From assembly GCF_003967355.1 (NCBI RefSeq), contig NZ_BIFH01000025.1, positions 1 to 64,000 on the forward strand: DNA of 64,000 bases, in the 5' to 3' direction. This DNA comes from Embleya hyalina. GTDB lineage: Bacteria > Actinomycetota > Actinomycetes > Streptomycetales > Streptomycetaceae. The notes beneath the pieces were generated by a model. It ran no database searches. It was not told where the DNA came from and saw nothing but the letters and a program-made list of their open reading frames with translations. Below are positions 36,451 through 49,345 of this stretch, in pieces (positions within the stretch are counted from its first letter, which is position 1; each line of letters begins with the position of its first letter). A program made the position numbers and the translations under genes.

Positions 36451-37395
36451 ATGCGCATCGTCTCGTTGTTGCCCGCCGCCACCGATCTGGTCGCCGAACT
36501 CGGACTCGTGGGCGACCTGGTCGGCCGCACCCACGAATGCGACTGGCCGCCGGGGGAGGTCGCCGGAGTGCCGGTGGTCACCCGTGCGGAGTTCGACGCG
36601 GACCGGTTGAGCAGTCGGGAGATCTCCGAGGCCGTCGGCGGTGCGGCGCACCGGGGGTCGTCGCTGTACACGTTGGACGCCGAGCGTCTCGCGGAGTTGG
36701 CGCCCGATGTCGTGCTGACGCAGGATCTGTGTGACGTGTGCGCGGTGTCGTACACGGCGGTCTCCGAGACGGTTCGGGTTCTGGACGCCGGGCCGCGCGT
36801 GGTCAGTCTGGAGCCGCGTACCCTGCCGGACGTCCTCGACACACTGACGCACGTGGGCGCGGTGCTGGGGGTCCAGGACGTCGCAGCCGCACGGCTGCGG
36901 GAGTTGCGGGCCCGCATGGCGGCGGTGACCGCGGCGGTCGCGGGACGGCCGAAGCCCCGGGTCGCGGCCGTCGAATGGCTCGATCCGCTGTGGCCCGCCG
37001 GGCACTGGGTGCCCGAGCAGATCGGCCTGGCCGGCGGTGAACCGCTGCTCGCCGCGCCCGGCGAACACACCAAAGCCATGGAGTGGGCGGCGGTTCGAGA
37101 CACCCGGCCGGACGTAATCCTGGTGCTGCCGTGCGGGTTCGCGCCCGAGCGCACCGAGTCGGAGGCGAGCCTGCTGACGTCCCTGCCCGGCTGGTCGGAC
37201 CTGCCCGCCGTGCGGTCCGGGCGCGTGTGGGTGCTCGACGGCCCGGCGTACTTCAACCGCCCCGGCCCCCGCGTGGTGCGCGGCGCCGAGGTGCTCGCCT
37301 GGGTATTGCACGGCGTCGCGGTCGGCGCACCGGTGACCCATGCCGAGGCTCGACGGCTGCCGGGCGATGCGGACACGGCGACGACAGGCGACTGA
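36451..37395 (+). CDS. BtuF-like cobalamin-binding protein without signal peptide
   Basis: 314 residues of the TroA/BtuF helical-backbone binding fold. Landmarks: [67 protein letters not shown], and a second lobe with [17 protein letters not shown] and [10 protein letters not shown]. Binding proteins of ABC importers carry a signal peptide or lipobox, but this one starts directly with the first beta strand, so it appears cytoplasmic. Such proteins are often annotated as cobalamin-binding; the role here may be intracellular corrinoid handling (inference). The next genes are controlled by cobalamin riboswitches. Confidence 0.85.
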
Positions 37396-37544: not shown

Positions 37545-37660
37545 ATGGCGCCGTTCCTCGGGGAAAGCCGGTCGAAACCCGGCACTGTCCCGCAACCGTA
37601 GGCGCTCCGTACCACCGGGCAACCGGGCGGCGGGGTGCGAGTCGGATTGCCCGTGGTCCG
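37545..37660 (+). promoter_or_regulatory. Cobalamin riboswitch 1
   Basis: Conserved B12-aptamer core: GGGAAAGCCGGTCGAAACCC (P3-P5 junction), then GGCACTGTCCCGCAACCGTA (P5-P6 with the CCCGCAAC block), a variable GC-rich P7 hairpin, and the closing GCGAGTCGGATTGCCC. The pairing and order match riboswitches 2 and 4. It stands 115 bp before a secreted-protein gene that has decayed (37775). Binding of cobalamin would lower expression. Confidence 0.88.
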
Positions 37661-37774
37661 GTGTTTTCGTCGAGATCCGTCGTGGACTGCGGACAGCGAA
37701 GAGCCCGGACGACCGGCTGCCGTCGGTTCGCTGGCCGCTTCCTCTGCCACGATCCTGGTGGGGAAGGAACGGCC

Positions 37775-38195
37775 GTGAGTACGTCTGCCGGACACGCGAA
37801 ATCGGCGCCCCTACCGCGCGAATCCCCCATCGATCGTCGTACCGCCATGACCGGCGCGGTACTGACGGCGATTCTCCTGCTCCTGAGCCTCGTCGGCGCC
37901 CTTCCGGCGCGCGCCAGCGGTCTCGAAGCCTGTCCGTCGGGCAATCGGGCCGGTCTGGTGCTGGACTTCGGCGCCGTCGACGACCCGCTCGCCGGCCCCC
38001 GCCCCGTCCCGGCGCTGACCTCGACCTGTGTAACGCCGCTGCGCGCTGCGGGCGGTGCCTCGGTCAGCGGCCTGGACCTGTTGACCCGCACCGGGCACAC
38101 CCTGCGCACCAACGCGTCCGGCCTGGTGTGTCCATCGACGGCTATCCGGCCGAGGGCTGCGCCGAGACGTTGCCGGGCGGGCGAGGGTACGCCTT
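37775..38195 (+). pseudogene. Decayed secreted protein under riboswitch 1 (DUF4430-like relative)
   Basis: GTG at 37775 follows GGGAAGGAAC. The N-terminus has a signal peptide (AVLTAILLLLSLVGALPARAS), of which AVLTAILLLL and SLVGALPARAS are the two halves. The mature part (GNRAGLVLDFGAVDD, TCVTPLRAAGGASVSGLDLL, HTLRTNASGLVC, SIDGYPAEGC) parallels the intact DUF4430-like proteins at 38737 and 44492 (VTVIVDFQELGG, C-x-GDQATGLAAL, FICRIEGKP). A 1-nt loss after GLVC shifts the frame. The YWSYWH end block is missing because sequence from a thiI-like gene begins at about 38190. It is therefore a pseudogene despite an intact-looking riboswitch. Confidence 0.65.
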
Positions 38196-38330
38196 GTACA
38201 TCGCGGACGGGTCGGCGTACGGGGCTCCGCCGAAGTGCACGAAGTCGCAGGCCAGGCCCCGTCGCATGGCCCGGTGCGCGGCGACCGGCGAGTCGAAGCC
38301 CCCGGACGGCGGGACCAGTGCCCGACCGCT
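38187..38330 (-). pseudogene. Fragment of a ThiI-like gene
   Basis: Minus-strand translation gives the PP-loop region of ThiI-type tRNA sulfurtransferases: ALVPPSGGFDSPVAAHRAMR then RGLACDFVHFGGAPYADPS and MYKAY (family: LLSGGFDSPVAAW ... VHFHxxPYT). Only about 45 codons survive. It abuts the truncated end of the riboswitch-1 gene, marking a rearrangement junction. Confidence 0.55.
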
Positions 38331-38395
38331 GGTCCCGACACCGTTGGGCACCCACGAGGGTGACGAACGACATCGCGGAATCATCGTATGACCCG

Positions 38396-38461: not shown

Positions 38462-38560
38462 ATAGTTCGGAGTCCAGGGGAAGCCGGTCGAAATCCGGCG
38501 CTGACCCGCAACCGTAGGCGGTGGTCGACAACCACCGCGAGTCGGAATGCCTGGACTCGT
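38462..38560 (+). promoter_or_regulatory. Cobalamin riboswitch 2
   Basis: Core GGGGAAGCCGGTCGAAATCC, GGCGCTGACCCGCAACCGTA, a P7-type hairpin (GCGGTGG ... CCACCGC) and closing CGAGTCGGAATGCC. A GTCCAG/CTGGAC pair encloses it. It is nearly identical to riboswitch 4, including the downstream block GGCTCCAGCTGTCGTGGACT, so the two arose by duplication. It precedes the secreted DUF4430-like gene at 38737 by about 175 bp; the ribosome site lies outside the aptamer, so control by an expression platform in 38560-38736 is inferred. Confidence 0.92.
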
Positions 38561-38736
38561 ACGAGTTTTATGGCTCCAGCTGTCGTGGACTGCACGCTGA
38601 GGCCCGGATTTCACGTCCGGCGATGTCTCGTCGGTGGATACCGGGGGTGCGCGGTCCCGAGAGGAACACCGCTCGGCCCGGTCGGCATCGCTCTCGCCGC
38701 TCGTGCCGAGACCCGCCACACGAAGGGGATCCGCAC

Positions 38737-39270: not shown

Positions 39271-39519
39271 CGCCGGCCGATCCGCCCAAGGCCCCGAGGC
39301 AGGCTCGTCCTCGATGTCGCGACCGCGTTCGTTCCGCAGGATCACCGCCCGTGGGGACACTTCGCCCGGGACGAACGCGGCAACGCGTCATGAGGACCGA
39401 CTCGATCGAAGCGACACCGGCCGCGTCCACACCTTCGAGGCATGCTCTCGCCGTCCGGCGCATGGACTGGGCTCCCCGAGGTGCCTCCGGGCGACTAAGC
39501 TGTCGCACGCAGTCGGTTC

Positions 39520-39715
39520 GCCCTGCCATCCGGGTAGGCGCGTCGTAAGAGGGAACCCGGTGTGAATCCGGGACTGCCCCGCAGCGGTGAGTGGGAACGA
39601 CCGCCGTCAACAGCACTGGACCCGAGTCGGGTTTGGGAAGCGACGGCCAGTAGGTGTCCGCCCTTTGGTGGACGTGCCCACGAGTCCGAAGACCTGCCAC
39701 TGCCCGTGCGCTGCC
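39520..39715 (+). promoter_or_regulatory. Cobalamin riboswitch 3 (metE leader)
   Basis: A longer, classical AdoCbl-type element: AGAGGGAACCCGGTGTGAAT, CCGGGACTGCCCCGCAGCGG, then GTGAGTGGGAACGACCGCCG, CACTGG, GGGAAG and the closing box GAGTCCGAAGACCTGCCACT. It lies 160 bp before metE and differs in peripheral arms from riboswitches 1, 2 and 4. It should repress metE when cobalamin is available, because the B12-dependent synthase then suffices. Nothing is seen in 39271-39519. Confidence 0.95.
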
Positions 39716-39873
39716 GCAGCGCACGGTGAACTCGGTGACCTCGTGGGCGGGTCGGCGGACAACCGGTGGGACACATGCGCGAGTGCGCCGACGTGGCCCG
39801 CGCGGTTTGTCGTCCCTTCGCGCCTGCGATCCGTCTCCGGGATCTTGTCGACAGGCTCGCGAAGGAGAGTTCC

Positions 39874-42198
39874 GTGACCACCAAGTCCGCAGCCGCGGCG
39901 GCACGCGCCACCGTGTACGGCTACCCCCGCCAGGGCCCGAATCGGGAACTGAAGAAGGCCGTCGAAGGCTACTGGGCCGGCCGTATCGATGCACAGGCGC
40001 TCCGCAACGCCTCGGCCGAACTGCGCCGCGCCAACTGGCGACGCCTCGCCGAGGCCGGCATCCACGAGGTGCCCACCGGCGACTTCTCGCTGTACGACCA
40101 CGTCCTCGACACCAGCGTCGCCGTGGGCGCGATCCCGGCCCGGCACCGCGCCGCCGTCGAAGCCGACGCCCTGGACGGCTACTTCGCGATGGCGCGCGGT
40201 ACGCAGGACGTGGCGCCGCTGGAGATGACCAAGTGGTTCGACACGAACTACCACTACCTCGTGCCCGAACTCGGACCCGACACCGTTTTCGCGGCGAACT
40301 CCGCCAAGCAGGTGGCCGAGTTCCGGGAGGCCGTCGCGCTGGGCCTGACCGCCCGTCCGGTGCTGGTGGGCCCGCTCACCTACCTCCTGCTCGCCAAGCC
40401 CGCACCGGGCGTCGCGGCCGACTTCCAGCCGCTGACCCTGCTGGACCGACTGCTACCGGTGTACGCCCGGCTGCTCGCCGACCTGCGCGCCGCCGGCGCC
40501 GAGTGGGTACAACTCGACGAACCGGCGCTGGTGCAGGACCGCAGCTTCGCCGAACTGGGCGCCGCAGCCCGGGTCTTCCGCGAACTCGGCGGCCTGACCG
40601 ACCGGCCCAAGCTGCTCGTGGCCTCGTACTTCGACCGCCTGGGCGAGGCACTGCCGATCCTGGCCAAGGCCCCGATCGAGGGCCTGGCGCTGGACTTCAC
40701 CGGCTCCGCCGCCGCCAACCTGGACGCGCTGGCCGCCGTCGGCGGACTGCCCGGGAAGCGGCTGGTCGCCGGTGTCGTGGACGGCCGCAACGTGTGGATC
40801 AACGACCTCGGCAAGTCGCTGACCACGCTCGGCATACTGCTGGGCCTGGCCGACCGGGTCGACGTCGCCGCCTCCTGCTCGTTGTTGCACGTGCCGCTGG
40901 ACGCCGACGCGGAACGCGACATCGACCCGCAGATCGCCCGCTGGCTCGCCTTCGCCCGGCAAAAGACCGAGGAGGTCGTCACCCTGGCCCGCGGCCTCGC
41001 CCAGGGCACCGACACCATCGCGACACACCTCGCCGCCAACCGCGCCGACCTGGCCGCACGCAGGGCCTCCGCGCTCACCCACGACCCCGCCGTCCGCGCC
41101 CGCGCCGCCGCGGTCACCGACGCGGACGGCCGCCGCAGCAGGCCCTACGCCGAACGCGCCGAGGCCCAACGCGCCCACCTGGGACTGCCGTTGCTGCCCA
41201 CGACCACCATCGGCTCCTTCCCGCAGACCGCCGAACTGCGCGCCGCCCGCGCCGACCTGCGCGCGGGGCGCATCGACGGCGCCGGGTACGAGGAGCGCAT
41301 CGAAGCCGAGATCCGCGACGTGATCTCCTTCCAGGAGAAGGCCGGCATCGACGTCCTGGTGCACGGCGAAGCCGAACGCAACGACATGGTCCAGTACTTC
41401 GCCGAGCAGCTGACCGGATACGTCGCCACCCGGCACGGCTGGGTGCAGTCGTACGGCACGCGGTACGTGCGCCCGCCGATCCTGGCCGGCGACATCTCCC
41501 GTCCCGAGCCGATGACCGTGCGCTGGACCGCGTTCGCCCAGTCGTTGTCCGACCGACCCGTCAAGGGCATGCTGACCGGGCCGGTGACCATGCTCGCGTG
41601 GTCCTTCGTCCGCGACGACCAACCGCTCGGGGAAACCGCCCGACAGGTCGCGCTCGCGCTGCGCGACGAGGTCGACGACCTGGAGGCCGCCGGGAGTTCG
41701 GTCATCCAGGTGGACGAGCCCGCGCTGCGCGAGACGCTGCCGCTGCGCGCGGTGGACCATGCCGCGTACCTGGACTGGGCCACCGAGGCGTTCCGGCTGA
41801 GCACGTCCGGCGTACGCACGGCGACCCAGATCCACACGCACATGTGCTACGCCGAGTTCGGCGACATCGTGCAGGCCATCGACGACCTCGACGCCGACGT
41901 GATCAGCCTGGAGGCCGCCCGCTCGCACATGCAGGTCGCGGGCGAACTCGCCGCCCACAGCTACCCGCGCGAGGCCGGACCCGGCGTGTACGACATCCAC
42001 TCCCCGCGCGTTCCCGGCACGGACGAGGTGGTGGGCCTGCTCCGCAAGGGCCTGGCCGCGATCCCCGCCGAACGCCTGTGGGTCAACCCGGACTGCGGCC
42101 TCAAGACCCGCGGCTGGCCCGAGGTCCGCACCTCGCTGGAGAACCTGGTCGCGGCGGCCCGGGAGGTGCGCACGACGCTGCCGAACACGACCTCTTGA
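39874..42198 (+). CDS. metE: Cobalamin-independent methionine synthase
   Basis: 774 residues, full length. It transfers the methyl group of methyl-THF-polyglutamate to homocysteine using zinc. N-terminal barrel: YGYPRQGPNRELKKAVEGYW and MTKWFDTNYHYLVPEL. Catalytic C-terminal barrel: LPLLPTTTIGSFPQT, HGEAERNDMVQYF, QIHTHMCYAEFGDI (zinc His and Cys) and WVNPDCGLKTRGW (zinc Cys). GTG at 39874 has AAGGAG 8 nt upstream. It is regulated by riboswitch 3, and a GC-rich hairpin follows the stop. With metF nearby it forms the last steps of methionine synthesis under B12 limitation. Confidence 0.98.
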   Translation: MTTKSAAAAARATVYGYPRQGPNRELKKAVEGYWAGRIDAQALRNASAELRRANWRRLAEAGIHEVPTGDFSLYDHVLDTSVAVGAIPARHRAAVEADALDGYFAMARGTQDVAPLEMTKWFDTNYHYLVPELGPDTVFAANSAKQVAEFREAVALGLTARPVLVGPLTYLLLAKPAPGVAADFQPLTLLDRLLPVYARLLADLRAAGAEWVQLDEPALVQDRSFAELGAAARVFRELGGLTDRPKLLVASYFDRLGEALPILAKAPIEGLALDFTGSAAANLDALAAVGGLPGKRLVAGVVDGRNVWINDLGKSLTTLGILLGLADRVDVAASCSLLHVPLDADAERDIDPQIARWLAFARQKTEEVVTLARGLAQGTDTIATHLAANRADLAARRASALTHDPAVRARAAAVTDADGRRSRPYAERAEAQRAHLGLPLLPTTTIGSFPQTAELRAARADLRAGRIDGAGYEERIEAEIRDVISFQEKAGIDVLVHGEAERNDMVQYFAEQLTGYVATRHGWVQSYGTRYVRPPILAGDISRPEPMTVRWTAFAQSLSDRPVKGMLTGPVTMLAWSFVRDDQPLGETARQVALALRDEVDDLEAAGSSVIQVDEPALRETLPLRAVDHAAYLDWATEAFRLSTSGVRTATQIHTHMCYAEFGDIVQAIDDLDADVISLEAARSHMQVAGELAAHSYPREAGPGVYDIHSPRVPGTDEVVGLLRKGLAAIPAERLWVNPDCGLKTRGWPEVRTSLENLVAAAREVRTTLPNTTS

Positions 42199-42279: not shown

Positions 42280-42602
42280 TCGATGCGGGGGACCACCGAC
42301 GAACCGATCGAAAGGATCGACTACCTCATGGGACCGCAACGCACGGACGGATCCCGGCTGATCCGCGACCCGCGCACCAACCCCGGCCCGAGTCCGGGAG
42401 GCGCCGCCACGCCGACGAACACCGGGGCGAGTGCGGGGGGTTCGTCCGGCGGGTCGGGTCGGGACGCGGTGGCGGCGGATTGGCCTTCAGCGGCACCAAC
42501 GCGTCGACGTTGGTCCTGATATCGCTGATCCTGCTCACGATCGGTGGCGGCGTCTTCGTCGCGACCCGGCATCGCAAGGGTGCCTACGTGCGACGGCACT
42601 GA
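42280..42602 (+). pseudogene. Relic of a sortase-anchored surface protein C-terminus
   Basis: An upstream frame encodes a Pro/Gly/Ser/Thr-rich linker (DPRTNPGPSPGGAATPTNTG). After a frameshift near 42465 it joins a sorting-signal-like tail: GGGGLAFSGTNAS, a hydrophobic helix (TLVLISLILLTIGGGVFVA) and a basic end (TRHRKGAYVRRH). LAFSG resembles the LAXTG motif of class E sortases with Ser for Thr. The N-terminal functional domain is missing. Its place between metE and riboswitch 4 suggests a lost paralogue of the anchored capture protein. Confidence 0.55.
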
Positions 42603-42718: not shown

Positions 42719-42748
42719 TTGTCCGACGGCTGGAATGTTCCGTATGCT
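42719..42748 (+). promoter_or_regulatory. Predicted promoter of the B12-uptake operon
   Basis: A -35-like TTGTCC (42719-42724) and -10-like TATGCT (42743-42748) with an 18-bp spacer, 30-40 bp upstream of riboswitch 4. The same elements and flanking words (CTCCGCA, GCCGAG/GCCGGC) precede riboswitch 2. Confidence 0.6.
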
Positions 42749-42779
42749 CCGCACGCCGAGTCGTATCGGCATTCCAATT

Positions 42780-42880
42780 CCATAGTTCGAAGCTCAGGGG
42801 AAGCCGGTCGAAATCCGGCGCTGACCCGCAACCGTAGGCGGTGGCCGCGAGGCCGCCGCGAGTCGGAATACCTGGGTACG
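42780..42880 (+). promoter_or_regulatory. Cobalamin riboswitch 4 (uptake operon leader)
   Basis: Core AGGGGAAGCCGGTCGAAATC, CGGCGCTGACCCGCAACCGT, hairpin GCGGTGGCC/GGCCGCCGC, and closing GAGTCGGAATACCTGGG. It matches riboswitch 2 over almost its whole length and continues with the shared block GGCTCCAGCTGTCGTGGACT. It stands 115 bp before the first gene of the operon, so cobalamin should turn the five genes down together. Confidence 0.93.
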
Positions 42881-42995
42881 TACGAATTTTGCTGGCTCCA
42901 GCTGTCGTGGACTACACGCTGAAGCCCGGACCGCCCGACCGGCGTCGTGCCGTCGGCGAGCCCCGGGACGCGTTGGTCTCGGAAGGGTCCCACCG

Positions 42996-44495
42996 ATGTC
43001 CTGGCTCACTGTGCGAAAGTCCGGCGCCGTCGCGGTCTGCGGCGCGATCCTGGTCGCGGCCTCCCCCGTCTTCTCCGCCTCGGCCGATGCCGCGAACCCG
43101 TATGCCGCATCGGCCGCGGCGGCGGCGAAGTGGCAGGCCGGGGAGCTGGTGGACGGGGGTATACCCGGGTTCTCCGGTGCGGACTGGGGCCTGACCATCG
43201 ACACCATGATGGCGCTGGCCGCCACCCGTTCGCAGCCTGCCGCGCTCGGCGCGGCGGCGGATGCGGTGGCCGCGAACATCCGCAAGTACAACAGCGCCGA
43301 GGAGTGGGGCATGCCCGGCTCACGGATCGCGGGGGCGACCGCGAAGGTGTTGTTCGCCTCGGTCGTCGCGGGCCGCGAGCCGACCGCGTTCGGCGGGCTG
43401 GACATGCGCGCGGAAACACTCGACCTGATCGCCAGCGCGGATGCCGGCGACGACGTGGGCCGGATCCGGGACAAGCTCACCGGCAGCCCCGACTCCGGCA
43501 ACGCGTTCGGTCAATCGCTCGCCGTGCTCGGCCTGGCCCGCAGCGGCGGAGTACCGCAGACCGCCGTGGACTTCCTGATCAAGCAGCAGTGCCCGAGCGG
43601 CGGCTTCCGGCTGTTCCCGGGGCAGTTGGGCAGCACCGGCGCGACCTGCCAGGACACCCCGACCACCGTGCTCGACCCGGACTCCACGGGGATGGCCGTA
43701 CAGGCGCTGCTGTCCGCGGCGGCCGAGAGCGGGTCGACCGGCGCGGCGGCCGCGGCGAAGAAGGGTGCGGACTGGTTGAAGTCCAAGCAGCGCGCCGACG
43801 GTTCGTTCGGCGGCTCGGGCCCCACCGAGGCCTCGAACACCAACAGCACCGGCCTGGCCGGGCAGGCCCTGCACGCCGCCGGCTACTCGACCGAGGCGGA
43901 CAAGGCCGCAGCGTGGGTCGCCAAGCACCAGATCACCGCGGACAACGCCGGCGCCGCGACCAAGGACGTCGGCACCATCGCCTACAACGAGGACGCGCTC
44001 ACCTCGGCCCGGGCGGAGGGCATCCCGGACTTCCAGCGCGACCAGTGGCGCCGCGCCACCCCGCAGGCCCTGCTCGTACTCGCGGACGTCCCCCTCGGTG
44101 ACCTGGGCAAGGCGCCGACCGAGCCGACCGGGACCGCGACAAGCAGCCCTGTGCCGACCGGCTCCCACACCCCCGCGCCCTCCGGCTCGGCCACCCACAC
44201 CGGGTCCGAGAGCCCGTCCGCCTCGACGTCGGCTACGCCCACCACGTCGCTCGGCCAGACCGCGAGCGCCTCGATCACCGCGTCCGCGACGAACACGACC
44301 CGGGCCGGCACGAGCGGCTCGGCATCGGGCGGCGGAAGCACCTCCGGCGGTGGCGGCACCGCGAACGGCGGCGGCGGAAGCCTCGCCCGCACGGGCGCGG
44401 AGATCGGCGGCATGGTGCTGCTGGCGGTCGGCCTGGTCGGCACCGGATTCGCCGTCCGCGCCGGCGCACGCCGCAAGAACGGCAAGCACACATGA
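42996..44495 (+). CDS. LAXTG-anchored alpha/alpha-barrel protein (transcobalamin alpha-domain-like)
   Basis: 499 residues. A signal peptide (1-32, cleavage near SADAAN) is followed by an alpha/alpha toroid of prenyltransferase/squalene-cyclase-like repeats (about 35-365): KWQAGELVDGGIPGF, TMMALAATRSQP, DFLIKQQCPSGGF, DSTGMAVQALLSAA, ADWLKSKQRADGSFGG and NSTGLAGQALHAAGY. A Ser/Thr/Pro linker (370-455) leads to the sorting signal SLARTGAEIGG, a hydrophobic helix and a basic RRKNGKH tail; LARTG fits the LAXTG motif of class E sortases. The same toroid forms the alpha domain of intrinsic factor/transcobalamin. No terpene-cyclase DxDD motif was seen. It is first in an operon led by a cobalamin riboswitch and overlaps the DUF4430-like gene (ATGA). 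ATG at 42996 follows GGAAGGG. Confidence 0.85.
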   Translation: MSWLTVRKSGAVAVCGAILVAASPVFSASADAANPYAASAAAAAKWQAGELVDGGIPGFSGADWGLTIDTMMALAATRSQPAALGAAADAVAANIRKYNSAEEWGMPGSRIAGATAKVLFASVVAGREPTAFGGLDMRAETLDLIASADAGDDVGRIRDKLTGSPDSGNAFGQSLAVLGLARSGGVPQTAVDFLIKQQCPSGGFRLFPGQLGSTGATCQDTPTTVLDPDSTGMAVQALLSAAAESGSTGAAAAAKKGADWLKSKQRADGSFGGSGPTEASNTNSTGLAGQALHAAGYSTEADKAAAWVAKHQITADNAGAATKDVGTIAYNEDALTSARAEGIPDFQRDQWRRATPQALLVLADVPLGDLGKAPTEPTGTATSSPVPTGSHTPAPSGSATHTGSESPSASTSATPTTSLGQTASASITASATNTTRAGTSGSASGGGSTSGGGGTANGGGGSLARTGAEIGGMVLLAVGLVGTGFAVRAGARRKNGKHT

Positions 44496-45538
44496 GGCGC
44501 CTCGGACGTGGTGGCCGCATGGCACGCCTGATCACCGCCCTGGCCCTGCTCGCCCTCCCCGCCGCCGCTCGGCTCACGGTCGCCGCGCCGGCCGCACAGG
44601 CGGTCGACACTTCGAAGGGCACCCCCGGCTACTGCCCGGACGCGGGCGGCGTGACGATCGTGATCGACTTCCAGGAGCTGGGCGGTACGACCATCGTGCG
44701 CTGTGCCCGGGGTGATCAGGCCACCGGCCATGCCGCGCTGAAAAACGCCGGCATCGAGATCGCCGGCGTGGCCCGCTGGGGCGAGGCGTTCATCTGCCGG
44801 ATCGAGGGCAAGCCCGGCGCCAACTCGGAGCCGTGCATCGACACGCCCCCGGCCTCCGCCTACTGGTCGTACTGGCACGCCCCCAACGGCGGTTCGTGGA
44901 CCTACAGCCAGTGGGGCGTGATGAACCGCAAGCCGCCGCCCGGCAGCTTCGAGGGCTGGTCGTTCGCCAAGAACAAGACCGAGACGACCAACCCGCCGCC
45001 GCGCGTGGCTCCTTCGCGCCCGGCCGCGCCCGCGACGCAGGACCCACCGCCCAGGACGAACAACCCGCAACCGCCGGCAGGCAACGGAGGCAACCCGGGC
45101 AGCTCCGGCAACGGCACGACGTCGGCGGCATCTGGGGGCAACTCCGGTAAGACCGGGGGTGGTTCCGCCTCGACCGTGGGCGGCTCCAACGGGGCGAACG
45201 GGACTTCCACCTCGGGTACCGATCCGCTCGCCCCGGGGCCGGGTGTGTCCGGCAATCCGATGGAGGCCGAGCCGCCGCCGGCCGCCCCGGCGAGCGAGGT
45301 GCCCGGCACGGCCCCCACCGAGTCCGCGGCGCCGCCGGGTTCGGCCGCGCCGTCGGCGCAACCCTCCGGGATCACCCCGCAGGGCCAGACCTGGACCGGC
45401 GGCGAGGAGTTGGCCACGAAGAAGCGGGAAGGGATCCCGACCACGACCATCGCCGGCATCGCCCTGCTCGTGGCGATCTGCGCGGCGGCCGGGTTCACCA
45501 CGTGGCGCCGCCGCACCCGCGCCGACGGATCGGGATGA
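44492..45538 (+). CDS. Membrane-anchored DUF4430-like (transcobalamin beta-domain-like) protein
   Basis: 348 residues. Signal peptide (LITALALLALPAAARLTVA core, cleavage near AAQA), then a DUF4430-like domain (about 45-165): GVTIVIDFQELGGTT, RGDQATGHAALKNAG, WGEAFICRIEGKPG, SAYWSYWHAPNGG, GSFEGWSF. A long Gly/Ser/Pro/Thr linker (170-305) reaches a C-terminal helix (TTIAGIALLVAICAAAGF) with a basic end WRRRTR; there is no LPxTG motif, so it is held by the helix. It should work with the LAXTG protein, whose gene it overlaps by 4 nt: together they supply the alpha and beta modules of a transcobalamin. The domain is closely related to the free protein at 38737. Confidence 0.85.
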   Translation: MRRLGRGGRMARLITALALLALPAAARLTVAAPAAQAVDTSKGTPGYCPDAGGVTIVIDFQELGGTTIVRCARGDQATGHAALKNAGIEIAGVARWGEAFICRIEGKPGANSEPCIDTPPASAYWSYWHAPNGGSWTYSQWGVMNRKPPPGSFEGWSFAKNKTETTNPPPRVAPSRPAAPATQDPPPRTNNPQPPAGNGGNPGSSGNGTTSAASGGNSGKTGGGSASTVGGSNGANGTSTSGTDPLAPGPGVSGNPMEAEPPPAAPASEVPGTAPTESAAPPGSAAPSAQPSGITPQGQTWTGGEELATKKREGIPTTTIAGIALLVAICAAAGFTTWRRRTRADGSG

Positions 45539-46767
45539 ACGTGCCGCATCCGAAACCCTCGCCGACCGCCGTCGCGTTCCGCCGCGGCGGCGGCCGGCTG
45601 CCCCGCACCGTGCACCCCGGCGCGTGGTGGTTGTGGGCCCTTGGCCTGGCCACCGCCGCGAGCCGAACCACCAACCCCCTGCTGCTCGCGCTGATCCTGG
45701 CCGTGGCCGGGTTCGTCGTCGCCAACCGGCGCAGCGACGCGCCGTGGGCGCTGGCCTTTCGCATGTACCTGTTCCTCGGCTTGTTCATCATCGTGATGCG
45801 GGTGTTGTTCCGGATCGTCTTCGGCGCGGGCGCGGCGAGCGGCCATGTGCTGGTCGACCTGCCGGAGATCCCGCTGCCCGAGTGGGCGGCGGGGATCCAC
45901 CTGTTCGGGCCGGTGGGGCTGGAGCATGTACTGGGCGGGTTCTACGACGGGTTGCGGTTGGCCACGATGATCGTGTGCCTGGGCGCGGCGAACGCGTTGG
46001 CGAGCCCCAAGCGCATGCTCAAGGCGGTGCCGGCGGCGCTGTACGAGGTGGGCGCGGCGGTGGTGGTCGCCCTGTCGGTGGCGCCGCAGTTGATCGAGAG
46101 CGTGCATCGGGTGCGCCGGGCGCGGCGGTTGCGCGGCGGGGCGCAGAAGGGCATGCGGGCGCTGCGGTCGATCGCCATCCCGGTGCTCCAGGACGCGCTG
46201 GATCGTTCGCTCGCGCTGGCCGCGGCGATGGACTCCCGGGGATACGGCCGCAATCGGCATCTGCCGCGCACGATCCGGCTGGTGACCGGGGTGTTGACCC
46301 TGGTGGGGCTGATCGGGGTCTGTGTCGGGGTGTACGCCCTGCTCGACGGCGGTACGCCCCGCTACCTCGGCGTCACCATGTTGCCGGGGGGCCTGGTGGT
46401 CGCCGGTATCGGCTTCGTGCTGACCGGCCGGCGGATCGACCGCAGCGTGTACCTGCCGGACCGCTGGCGCCTCGCCGAATTCGCGGTCGCCGTCTGTGGC
46501 CTGGGCACCGGCGCGTTGCTCTACCTGACCAGCCGGATCGACGCGGGCAACCTGTACCCGTCACTCAGCCCACTCGCGTGGCCCGAGTTGGCCCCGTTGC
46601 CCGTACTCGCCTTGGCCGTCGGCGTGTTGCCGGCCTGGCTCGCCCCGCCGCCTCCGCTCACCGTGCCCCGCGCGGGCGTCATGCCGCCCGCGCCCGAGAC
46701 GCCCGTTCGGCCGACGACCCCGGACCGGGGCGACGGCACCATCCTCAGGGAGAAGTCCGTCCGGTGA
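45535..46767 (+). CDS. ECF transporter T component (CbiQ family)
   Basis: 410 residues, an integral membrane coupling protein that links the S component to the two ATPases. About 7-8 hydrophobic segments are visible (LLLALILAVAGFVVA, YLFLGLFIIVMRVLFRIVF, VGAAVVVALSVAPQ and others). The two coupling-helix signatures are present: RRARRLRGG and LAAAMDSRGYG (Ala-Arg-Gly type). The C-terminus adds two to three extra helices and a Pro-rich tail beyond the usual 260-residue CbiQ. ATG at 45535 overlaps the preceding stop (ATGA), and the stop overlaps the ATPase gene (GTGA). Confidence 0.92.
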   Translation: MNVPHPKPSPTAVAFRRGGGRLPRTVHPGAWWLWALGLATAASRTTNPLLLALILAVAGFVVANRRSDAPWALAFRMYLFLGLFIIVMRVLFRIVFGAGAASGHVLVDLPEIPLPEWAAGIHLFGPVGLEHVLGGFYDGLRLATMIVCLGAANALASPKRMLKAVPAALYEVGAAVVVALSVAPQLIESVHRVRRARRLRGGAQKGMRALRSIAIPVLQDALDRSLALAAAMDSRGYGRNRHLPRTIRLVTGVLTLVGLIGVCVGVYALLDGGTPRYLGVTMLPGGLVVAGIGFVLTGRRIDRSVYLPDRWRLAEFAVAVCGLGTGALLYLTSRIDAGNLYPSLSPLAWPELAPLPVLALAVGVLPAWLAPPPPLTVPRAGVMPPAPETPVRPTTPDRGDGTILREKSVR

Positions 46768-48449
46768 TCGAATTCCGCGACGTCACCATCACCTACGCCG
46801 ACGCACCGGCACCGGCCCTGCGCGATGTCGAGTTGACCATTCCCGAAGGGGAGTTGTGTCTGGTCGTCGGTCGCACGGGCGCGGGCAAGTCGACCCTCCT
46901 GGGCGCGATCAACGGCCTGGTCCCGCACTTCACCGGCGGCACGCTGCGCGGCAGTGTGCGCGTCGACGGAATCGAGACCCGCTCGCAACCACCGCGCGAG
47001 TTCGCACACCTGGTCGGCGTGGTCGGCCAGGACCCGCTCGCCGGCTTCGTCACCGACACGGTCGAGGAGGAACTTGCCTACGGTATGGAGCAGTTGGCCA
47101 TCCCGTCGGCGGTGATGCGCAAGCGGGTCGAGGAAACCCTCGACCTGCTGGGAATCGCCGAGTTGCGCCATCGCCCGCTGCGCACGCTCTCCGGCGGCCA
47201 GCAGCAGCGGGTCGCGATCGGCTCGGTGCTCACCGCGCACCCGCGCGTGCTGGTCCTGGACGAGCCGACGTCCGCGCTCGACCCCACCGCCGCCGAGGAC
47301 GTGCTCGCCGCGATCACCAGGCTCGTGCACGACCTCGGGATCACCGCGATCGTCGCCGAACACCGCATGGAGCGGGTCGTACAGTACGCCGACCGCCTCG
47401 TGCACCTGCCCGGGGACCGCACCGTCCGCGACGGCGCGCCCGCCGAGATCCTGCGGACCTGCGACATCGCCCCGCCGGTGGTCGAACTCGGCCGGCTGGC
47501 CGGGTGGTCGCCGCTGCCGCTGTCCGTGCGCGACGCCCGCCGCCTGGCCGCGCCGCTCCGCGAACGCCTCGTCGGCCACACACCCCCGGCGCCGCGCCCG
47601 ACCGACCCGACGACCGGCCCGCTGCTGAGCGCGCGGCGCATCATCGTGCGCTACGGCGACGTGATCGCCGTACGCGGCCTGGATCTGGAATTGCCCGGGC
47701 AGGTCACCGCGCTGATGGGCCGCAACGGGTCCGGCAAGTCCTCGCTGTTGTGGGCCCTGCAAGGGTCCGGGCCGCGTCAGGGCGGCACGGTGGACGTGGC
47801 GGGCGTCGACCCGGGCCGAGCCGAGCCGAAACGGGCCCGCGCACTGGTCGGCCTGGTCCCGCAGACCCCCGGCGATCTCCTCTACCTGGAGACCGTCGAC
47901 GCGGAATGCGCCGAGGCGGACCGCGAGTCGGGCGCCGAGGCGGGCGCGTGCCGAGCCCTGCTCGACCGCATCGCGCCGGGCATCGACGGCGCCGTACATC
48001 CGCGCGACGTCTCCGAGGGGCAACGCCTCGCGCTGGTCCTGGCCATCCAACTCGTGGCCGCGCCGCGGGTGGTGCTGCTCGACGAACCCACCCGCGGCCT
48101 CGACTACCACGCCAAGCGGCGGTTCGTCCGGGTGGTGCGCGAACTCGCCGACGCCGGAAGGGCGATCGTGTTGGCCACACACGACGTCGAGTTCGTCGCG
48201 CAGGTCGCCGACCGGGTCGTGGTGATGGCCGAGGGCGACATCGTCGCCGACGGCCCCACCGCCGAGGTCGTGGTGTCCTCCCCGGCGTTCGCACCCCAGG
48301 TGGCCAAGATCCTCGCCCCCGCCGAGTGGCTGACGGTCACCGACGTCGGCAACGCCCTTGCGGATACCGACGTCGCCCACCGGCAGCCCGACCCGTCGGT
48401 CTCACCCGACGCTCGCGCATCCGCCGCAGACAGGGAGCCCACCGGATGA
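46764..48449 (+). CDS. ECF transporter fused A1-A2 ATPase
   Basis: 561 residues carrying both ATPase domains of an ECF importer. Domain 1: Walker A GRTGAGKST, Q-loop VVGQDPLAGFVTDTV, signature LSGGQQQRVAIG, Walker B VLVLDEPTSALD, switch His in VAEHRMERV. Domain 2: Walker A GRNGSGKSS, Q-loop LVPQTPGDLLY, a weak signature VSEGQRLALVLA, Walker B VVLLDEPTRGLD, His in LATHDVEFV. It hydrolyses ATP to reorient the S component. GTG at 46764 overlaps the T-gene stop (GTGA). The dedicated, complete set of ECF genes makes this a group I system. Confidence 0.95.
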   Translation: MIEFRDVTITYADAPAPALRDVELTIPEGELCLVVGRTGAGKSTLLGAINGLVPHFTGGTLRGSVRVDGIETRSQPPREFAHLVGVVGQDPLAGFVTDTVEEELAYGMEQLAIPSAVMRKRVEETLDLLGIAELRHRPLRTLSGGQQQRVAIGSVLTAHPRVLVLDEPTSALDPTAAEDVLAAITRLVHDLGITAIVAEHRMERVVQYADRLVHLPGDRTVRDGAPAEILRTCDIAPPVVELGRLAGWSPLPLSVRDARRLAAPLRERLVGHTPPAPRPTDPTTGPLLSARRIIVRYGDVIAVRGLDLELPGQVTALMGRNGSGKSSLLWALQGSGPRQGGTVDVAGVDPGRAEPKRARALVGLVPQTPGDLLYLETVDAECAEADRESGAEAGACRALLDRIAPGIDGAVHPRDVSEGQRLALVLAIQLVAAPRVVLLDEPTRGLDYHAKRRFVRVVRELADAGRAIVLATHDVEFVAQVADRVVVMAEGDIVADGPTAEVVVSSPAFAPQVAKILAPAEWLTVTDVGNALADTDVAHRQPDPSVSPDARASAADREPTG

Positions 48450-49345
48450 CGACCGTCACCGACACGCCCAAACGCAGCAACGCGATTCGCATCACCCCAC
48501 GTACCGCGATCGTGCTCACCATCGCCTCCATCGCGGGTCTGGCGATGTTCCTGTGGCCGCTGTTCGCCTCCCCCTCGCCCGAATCGGCCGCGCACTCCGG
48601 GGACGCGCCGCTGATCTTCGCCGTCACATTGCCGTTCGTGGTCGCCGTGGTTCTCGCCGAACTCACCAGCGGTGGACTGGACTCCAAGGCGCTGGCCATG
48701 CTCGGCGTGCTCTCCGCGATCAACGCGGCACTGCGGCCGCTCGGCGCCGGCACCGCGGGGATCGAGACGGTGTTCTTCATGCTCGTGCTCGCCGGACGCG
48801 TGTTCGGCCCCGGGTTCGGATTCGTGCTCGGCTGTACGTCGTTGTTCGCGTCCGCCCTGTTGACCGCCGGCGTCGGCCCCTGGTTGCCGTTCCAGATGCT
48901 GGCCTCCGCCTGGGTCGGACTCGGCGCGGGCCTGCTCCCCCGACGCGTTCGCGGCCGGCGCGAGATCGTCATGCTGGCCTGCTACGGAGTCTTCGCCGCC
49001 TACGCGTTCGGCTTCCTGATGAACATGTGGTTCTGGCCCTTTCTCGCCGACTCCGAATCCATGGTCGGCCCGGCGTTCGTACCCGGCGACGGCATCCTCG
49101 ACAACCTGCACCGCTTCTTCGTCTTCACCATCCTCACCTCGACCTTCGGCTGGGACACCGGCCGGGCGATCACCAACTGCGTCGCCATCGCCCTCGTCGG
49201 CCCGGCGGTGCTGGCCGCACTGCGCCGCGCCTCCCGCAAGGCGGCGTTCGAGGCGCCGATCGTGTTCGAACCCGCTCGGGCCGACGACGGCCCTACACAG
49301 GTCGGAACCGCGACCACCGCCAAGCAGACGAAGCTTGCTCCATAA
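48446..49345 (+). CDS. ECF transporter S component, probably for cobalamin
   Basis: 299 residues with about six hydrophobic helices and cytoplasmic ends. Segments include IVLTIASIAGLAMFLWPLF, FAVTLPFVVAVVLAEL, AMLGVLSAINAALRPLG, ETVFFMLVLAGRVFGPGFGF, CYGVFAAYAFGFLMNMWFW and the terminal TNCVAIALVGPAVLAALRR. AxxAINAALR and the GFGFVLG region resemble DUF6580/ECF-type S components. It is the substrate-binding membrane subunit. Cobalamin is assigned from the riboswitch and the transcobalamin-like partners, not from S-component residues. ATG at 48446 overlaps the ATPase stop (ATGA). Confidence 0.88.
   Translation: MTTVTDTPKRSNAIRITPRTAIVLTIASIAGLAMFLWPLFASPSPESAAHSGDAPLIFAVTLPFVVAVVLAELTSGGLDSKALAMLGVLSAINAALRPLGAGTAGIETVFFMLVLAGRVFGPGFGFVLGCTSLFASALLTAGVGPWLPFQMLASAWVGLGAGLLPRRVRGRREIVMLACYGVFAAYAFGFLMNMWFWPFLADSESMVGPAFVPGDGILDNLHRFFVFTILTSTFGWDTGRAITNCVAIALVGPAVLAALRRASRKAAFEAPIVFEPARADDGPTQVGTATTAKQTKLAP

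Follow-up and report, generated by a model that had tools for sequence, protein, structure and literature searches.

A riboswitch-led ECF importer operon of Embleya hyalina whose two surface proteins may form a split, transcobalamin-like capture device

Bacterial transcobalamin-like SLBB domains were predicted to scavenge vitamin B12 by Burroughs, Balaji, Iyer and Aravind (2007; PMC1796856), who, in the accessible part of their article, place the clade in low-GC Gram-positives, planctomycetes and euryarchaea, give a fusion of an alpha/alpha toroid with the SLBB domain as a common architecture, and describe human transcobalamin as holding B12 between its toroid and its beta domain. A transporter for the same vitamin, ECF-CbrT of Lactobacillus delbrueckii (eLife 2018, PMC5997447), is presented in the accessible text as a cobalamin importer of the energy-coupling factor (ECF) type, in which CbrT binds cobalamin itself and shares its ECF module with other S components. 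Here we describe a five-gene operon in 64,000 nucleotides of Embleya hyalina (NCBI RefSeq assembly GCF_003967355.1, contig NZ_BIFH01000025.1, positions 1 to 64,000; hereafter the window), which encodes a secreted toroid protein, a secreted beta protein and an ECF importer behind a cobalamin riboswitch. ECF importers move vitamins; to our knowledge, it has not been established how a molecule the size of B12 is kept bound on its way through a thick wall to the S component of such an importer. We read the operon as a cobalamin (or corrinoid) importer in which the toroid and beta proteins, as separate chains, would each supply one half of a transcobalamin-like capture device, and put the probability of this reading at about 0.68; that cobalamin is the ligand, that both halves bind it jointly and that they hand it over to the S component are parts of it that we infer.

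The original prediction for this DNA, made from the sequence of the window, held that no bacterial capture complex of this form had been described. This was overstated, since the accessible part of PMC1796856 predicts a similar one, in low-GC Gram-positives and mostly as fusions. The idea of B12 capture is not wholly new, its logic having a published precedent there; what is new is the split form, which is widespread in actinobacteria. We found no description of this split actinobacterial form in the open-licence literature searched, and the accessible parts of PMC5997447, PMC2667541 and PMC4350170 do not describe the actinobacterial system.

The operon consists of five clean open reading frames (ORFs), each overlapping its neighbor by 4 nt (in order, ATGA, ATGA, GTGA and ATGA; Table 1). 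Its leader matches the cobalamin riboswitch family RF00174 at 42798-42872 (+) with 36.6 bits against a gathering score of 31.5 (E 1e-5, Rfam), and the predicted riboswitch ahead of five coupled genes was thereby borne out. We also used a riboswitch model, R1, made from 31 related elements, three of them from the window; this model, which has the operon element in its training set, scored it at 87.8 bits. In the alignment of the 31 sequences, 10 of the 21 pairs show changes on both sides, and R1 matched 76 times across 60 sources at E ≤ 0.01, and 131 times across the 78 named-genome loci described below. The last three genes encode T, A1-A2 and S in the predicted order, all with Pfam matches above cut-off, so that the operon has what characterizes an ECF transporter: its own T component, two ATPase domains and an S component.

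Table 1. Features of the operon and of the region upstream of it in the window.
Feature	Position	Strand	Evidence
Third cobalamin-riboswitch-like element	37556..37666	+	R1 76.3 bits, in training set; not in Rfam list at gathering
Third beta-like gene, frame-broken	37843..38380	+	three-frame reading
Cobalamin riboswitch before free beta paralogue	38472..38566	+	RF00174 31.7 bits; R1 93.1 bits, in training set
Free beta paralogue: signal peptide and beta domain, no anchor, 177 amino acids	38737..39270	+	clean frame
Full-length cobalamin riboswitch of metE	39496..39715	+	RF00174 92.7 bits; metE in ORF 39766-42198
Compact cobalamin riboswitch aptamer, operon leader	42792..42887	+	RF00174, model R1 and covariation
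Secreted alpha/alpha-toroid protein, LARTG wall-anchor signal, 499 amino acids	42996..44495	+	ORF, AlphaFold, Foldseek
Secreted transcobalamin-beta-like protein, C-terminal membrane helix, no sortase motif, 348 amino acids	44492..45538	+	ORF, AlphaFold, Foldseek
ECF T component, CbiQ family	45535..46767	+	PF02361 1.7e-8, above cut-off
ECF A1-A2 double ATPase	46764..48449	+	PF00005, two stretches, 5.9e-48
ECF S component	48446..49345	+	PF12822 (ECF_trnsprt) 8e-10, above cut-off

Related operons were collected in three sets. The named-genome set comprises the best 80 of 294 stretches encoding a relative, which correspond to 78 distinct loci of the nearest relatives; some of these are the same contigs as loci in the other two sets (L141 and L041, L144 and L099). 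Among the 67 of these loci longer than 12 kb, a same-strand upstream riboswitch was present in 66, T, A and S in 66, a same-strand toroid in 66, and everything together in 64. This recurrence suggests that the arrangement is more than chance and agrees with the predicted layout of separate alpha and beta polypeptides, with sortase-type and membrane anchors, next to ECF genes and a B12 riboswitch in actinobacterial genomes. With the short loci included, the counts out of 78 were 74 for the riboswitch, 73 for T, 71 for A, 70 for S and 68 for the toroid. Among named organisms, Embleya scabrispora (L138) is the nearest, with a toroid that is 89% identical. A beta-domain search of 147 genomes of the order (E ≤ 0.001) matched 70, 16 strongly (E. 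hyalina included) and 54 weakly, the weak matches being mostly about 40 residues long and, in the five inspected, of the SCO2322 type. The beta alignment, searched against 394 genomes of the class in 138 genera (E ≤ 1e-5), matched 154 genomes and 66 genera, half-length matches included. T, A and S adjoin the beta gene in 20/20 order loci (15 strong foreign and five weak), and all three were detected in 32 of the 39 usable class loci; the exceptions are a locus cut by a contig end (L097), one without a T match (L120), one with other ATPases only (L118) and four with none of T, A and S within reach (L104, L105, L115, L125).

Most relative operons are preceded by a compact cobalamin aptamer. A riboswitch on the opposite strand only was ruled out for L046, L048-L051, L053 and L054, each of which has an operon-strand element, below the Rfam gathering listing, besides the opposite-strand one. 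We also noted a lone beta gene after a B12 riboswitch in two genomes of about 1.2 Mb (L115:5980-6706 and L125:6847-7540; the riboswitch is of the adenosylcobalamin (AdoCbl) type by Rfam in L115 and called by R1 in L125); the 13-14 kb covered at these loci gave no match to a toroid or to ECF genes. In three other loci (L116:3034-6060, L127:3605-6625 and L136:6729-9581), matches to T, A, A and S follow one another within a single frame of 950-1008 codons, next to a lone small secreted beta gene; judged from their domain matches, these are apparently one-chain ECF importers.

The beta protein, whose ORF has an inner ATG at 44520-44522, matched NCBIfam SCO2322_fam at 7e-7, below cut-off, and no relevant Pfam family. 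AlphaFold modelled the beta domain from a 26-sequence alignment with a predicted local distance difference test (pLDDT) score of 81.6 and a predicted template-modelling (pTM) score of 0.81. When this model was compared with the PDB by Foldseek, 118 matches were obtained at E ≤ 10; among the 50 listed, the top 11 (E 0.03-0.4, probability 0.99-0.66, root-mean-square deviation (rmsd) 6.5-10.8) were without exception transcobalamin of human or rat and include the human beta domain on its own with cyanocobalamin, and the remaining 39 had probabilities of at most 0.23 throughout. The modelled beta half resembles the transcobalamin beta domain by fold, weakly but exclusively, and we claim its membership in the transcobalamin-like SLBB (beta-grasp) clade at the level of predicted fold only. 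In this clade a beta-hairpin is expected after the helix; the model has a helix at 46-52 followed by strands at 57-63 and 66-71, but only six strands of three or more residues are assigned overall.

In Crossiella, Allokutzneria, Actinoalloteichus and Actinomadura hibisca, the beta domain and the toroid are fused in a single chain. Such a fusion is present in eight of the nine loci L046-L054, the genes being separate in L047, and the order in the fusions seen is beta first, the reverse of transcobalamin. These natural fusions argue that the two halves work together. In the mechanism we propose, low B12 would release the riboswitch. The toroid, attached to the wall, and the beta domain, held at the membrane through its helix, would clasp a corrinoid on the outer side of the membrane and deliver it to S, with T and A1-A2 driving import. 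An ECF importer of cobalamin or a corrinoid precursor could also stand beside a toroid and a beta protein that are separate binders or wall scaffolds and form no joint clamp. The toroid fold is generic, and lone beta genes occur without a nearby toroid in the two small genomes (L115, L125) and before the single-frame T-A-A-S importers (L116, L127, L136), as separate functions would allow; given the same-strand toroid in 66 of the 67 long named loci, the fusion of toroid and beta in several loci, and free and anchored tiers that come in the same two kinds (see below), we nonetheless consider this unlikely.

Less probable still is a different ligand, cobalt or another B12-regulated nutrient, with a riboswitch that merely tracks B12, as for cobalt importers. 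This would fit a T component of the CbiQ family and the presence, in the same genome, of a riboswitch ahead of a CbiM cobalt-importer gene, but the S component had no CbiM match in Pfam or NCBIfam and transcobalamin is the leading fold match of the beta model.

The tail of the toroid protein, LARTG followed by a hydrophobic stretch and a basic end, confirmed the predicted LAXTG-type anchor signal. LAxTG is the class E sortase signal; the genome has nine matches at the level of the sortase domain, and the sortase signals in relatives are LPxTG in 25 cases and LAxTG in 21. By sequence, the toroid had weak Prenyltrans and SQHop matches in Pfam, under cut-off, and matched NCBIfam SCO2321_fam with E 3e-18, below the family cut-off; member by member, PF13243 (SQHop_cyclase_C) matched 29 of 32 toroids. 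The AlphaFold model from 32 sequences (pLDDT 94.9, pTM 0.93) consists of helix pairs almost throughout, and its best Foldseek matches were squalene-hopene cyclase-like proteins, drimenyl diphosphate synthase, AprG and sugar-cleaving toroids. Of 136 toroid ORFs (some genomes counted twice), 128 have no DxDD motif, which makes class II terpene cyclase activity unlikely. By its model the protein is an alpha/alpha toroid, and it is probably non-catalytic; its likeness to transcobalamin is generic, not specific, and we do not claim it as a transcobalamin, since the structure search did not single transcobalamin out. The proposed structural comparison with transcobalamin was accordingly favorable for the beta half, if weakly, and not for the toroid, which lies nearest to squalene-cyclase-like proteins. 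Matches of the toroid profile to transcription activator-like (TAL) effectors in the PDB were taken as artefacts of repeat composition. A secreted enzyme (a cyclase, a glycosidase or a peptidoglycan-acting protein) present by chance in a vitamin operon is very improbable, even with enzymes as the best fold matches and SQHop_cyclase_C in most toroids, given the missing DxDD and the steady pairing with a transcobalamin-like partner and an importer.

Several observations weigh against a transcobalamin-like capture device. Transcobalamin was absent among the 50 listed of the 691 Foldseek matches of the toroid. The eukaryotic cobalamin-binding family PF01122 matched only nine of 32 toroids at E ≤ 1 (best 6e-4), the window toroid not among them; an earlier toroid set gave 11 of 24, and the three matches with bit scores given reached 10.8-18 against a cut-off of 25. 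For the beta model, the transcobalamin matches have TM scores of 0.37-0.42 by query length at the rmsd given above, and none reaches E ≤ 0.001, so that the fold evidence lies in the exclusivity of these matches rather than in an E-value. A search of the PDB with the beta profile found no transcobalamin at E ≤ 10, only chance matches, and the DUF4430 / Transcobalamin-like C-terminal profile matched 0/26 and 0/43 diverse beta members at E ≤ 1, that of the window included. The predicted description of a DUF4430-like, helix-anchored protein holds for the anchor helix and, through the transcobalamin matches, at the level of fold only; the DUF4430 profile is one sampling of the transcobalamin-like SLBB clade, and the fold test points the other way. 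We found no convincing solved relative of the S component by sequence, solved CbrT included. Finally, the organism seems to make B12 (CbiC, CobN), so that uptake is not obviously needed.

The anchored operon is accompanied by unanchored forms. An unanchored beta paralogue with its own riboswitch lies 4 kb upstream; it was missed in the earlier reading of the window, as was a frame-broken third copy, which is probably a pseudogene or a sequencing error (Table 1). The free beta is 73% identical to the operon beta domain and has an orthologue in E. scabrispora (L138). The other intact toroid of the genome, within L061:7639-8952 on contig C16, has no anchor and adjoins a decayed copy of the operon; its start is probably later than 7639, since the frame overlaps a riboswitch. 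The decayed toroid-A-S copy (L061:5486-7127) diverges from this lone toroid; the region also has a pair of divergent riboswitch matches, one of them just below the Rfam cut-off. The free beta and the free toroid of the E. hyalina genome are each behind their own riboswitch. In E. scabrispora, free beta and free toroid genes sit beside the anchored operon (L138:1592-4315), whereas in E. hyalina the free toroid is encoded on a different contig and the free beta is separated from the operon by metE.

Free and anchored forms were called by simple tail rules with our own thresholds. By these rules, free toroid and free beta occur together in 27 of the 67 long loci; 12 have just the free beta, six just the free toroid and the others neither. 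A membrane-anchored beta is present in 65 and a toroid with an LxxTG-type signal in 50, while in 14 the toroid has a membrane helix as its sole anchor. In a midpoint-rooted toroid tree with several long branches, one clade (99/97) unites 16 free toroids of Streptomycetaceae, Pseudonocardiaceae and Micromonosporaceae, and a 31-row clade (99/96) holds most anchored toroids of the same three families. The split is not clean: six free-called rows fall outside the first clade (two of these lie within the second), and eight anchored rows belong to neither, including toroids encoded after S in some Streptomyces. The beta tree places most membrane forms in a 37-row clade (98/95), together with six rows that the tail rule calls free, and most free forms outside it as a series of branches, along with four membrane forms. 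From these trees, the free and anchored forms would have diverged earlier than the families. We tentatively suggest a two-tier B12 relay on the Gram-positive surface, possible though doubtful as a whole, in which diffusible free toroid and free beta would catch B12, hemophore-like, and pass it to the pair of wall toroid and membrane beta that loads the ECF importer, both tiers being under riboswitch control and both halves, in some lineages, permuted together. The step from the free to the anchored tier is a guess from co-occurrence.

The SCO2321 and SCO2322 families (NCBIfam NF053823 and NF040672) share operon position and ECF genes with the window pair, and in their operons both halves appear, from profile comparisons, to be circularly permuted relative to the window forms: the partners carry the same motifs with the order swapped in both. 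R1 matched 10 of 11 such loci (L057, L058, L059, L060, L129, L130, L132, L133, L134 and L135, not L056), four of which (L057, L060, L129, L130) were in its training set, and Rfam's own models called AdoCbl at L132 and AdoCbl-II at L133. The beta core aligned to the SCO2322-type profile as two segments in swapped order (scores 94 and 60), and a doubled core gave one alignment spanning both (141); for the toroid, scores of 294 and 97 rose to 380 against the doubled form. The swapped beta profile beat the native one for 11/11 SCO2322-type domains and lost to it for 43/43 canonical betas. The corresponding set of 11 toroids includes three canonical ones that passed the filter (L111, L123, L128); among the other eight, the swapped profile won six times and lost in L059 and L129. 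Scored over whole frames, 100 loci were canonical in both halves, five permuted in both and three mixed (L057, L059, L129; margins of 1-11 bits), only one partner having been scored in the rest. The beta result is the firmer one, as toroids are internally repetitive. A thioester-like GCGE[QK] string ending SCO2322-type domains was read as chance; it is not kept in all of them and lies outside the toroid.

Other RF00174 elements in the genome precede metE, cobN, cbiM and a stretch of two ORFs, the second of which is nrdB (ribonucleotide reductase beta subunit), and these belong to the same regulon as the operon. The genome encodes CbiC, CobN and a MetH-type domain; with CbiC and the MetH-type domain present, the organism probably makes and uses B12. 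For the ORF that follows a sub-threshold element on contig C48, a CbtA-like reading was dropped, as no family matched. Near the B12 genes, at 36451-37395 of the window, lies a substrate-binding-protein-like gene with a TIGR04281 match below cut-off, and in L051 and L052 the 15 kb surrounding the operon include a relative 75-77% identical to it. Between metE and the operon riboswitch, at 42470-42602, we noted an orphan LAFSG tail with a hydrophobic stretch and a basic end and saw no matching secreted protein in frame; it is perhaps the remnant of a wall protein.

If our reading of the operon is correct, actinobacteria would have a dedicated capture device that uses the two folds of animal transcobalamin as separable parts, so that the contribution of each half could be measured directly. 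It would bear on the proposed bacterial origin of the animal B12 carriers, suggest a function for the SCO2321 and SCO2322 families, and bear on who takes B12 from whom, in that an organism that seems to make B12 still invests in its capture.

The B12 carriers of animals are one soluble chain, taken up by endocytosis. Intrinsic factor, haptocorrin and transcobalamin share with the window pair an alpha/alpha toroid and a beta-grasp half, whereas the window pair is two chains, one on the wall and one on the membrane, beside an ECF importer; similarity to the animal proteins was not detected for the beta sequence, and some toroids have marginal PF01122 matches. Compared with ECF-CbrT, the window combines T, A and S with dedicated surface proteins in a single operon, and its S component has no sequence match to solved CbrT. 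The proteins of PMC1796856, in the accessible part of that article, have in common with the window a transcobalamin-type beta-grasp domain, an alpha/alpha toroid, signal peptides, Gram-positive anchors, operons with a CbiO ATPase and CbiQ, a second paralogous surface protein and a proposed role in B12 scavenging. Relative to what is described there, the actinobacterial form lacks a DUF4430 profile match, has its halves mostly on separate chains with different anchors, is under direct riboswitch control, and adds free and anchored tiers and circularly permuted versions.

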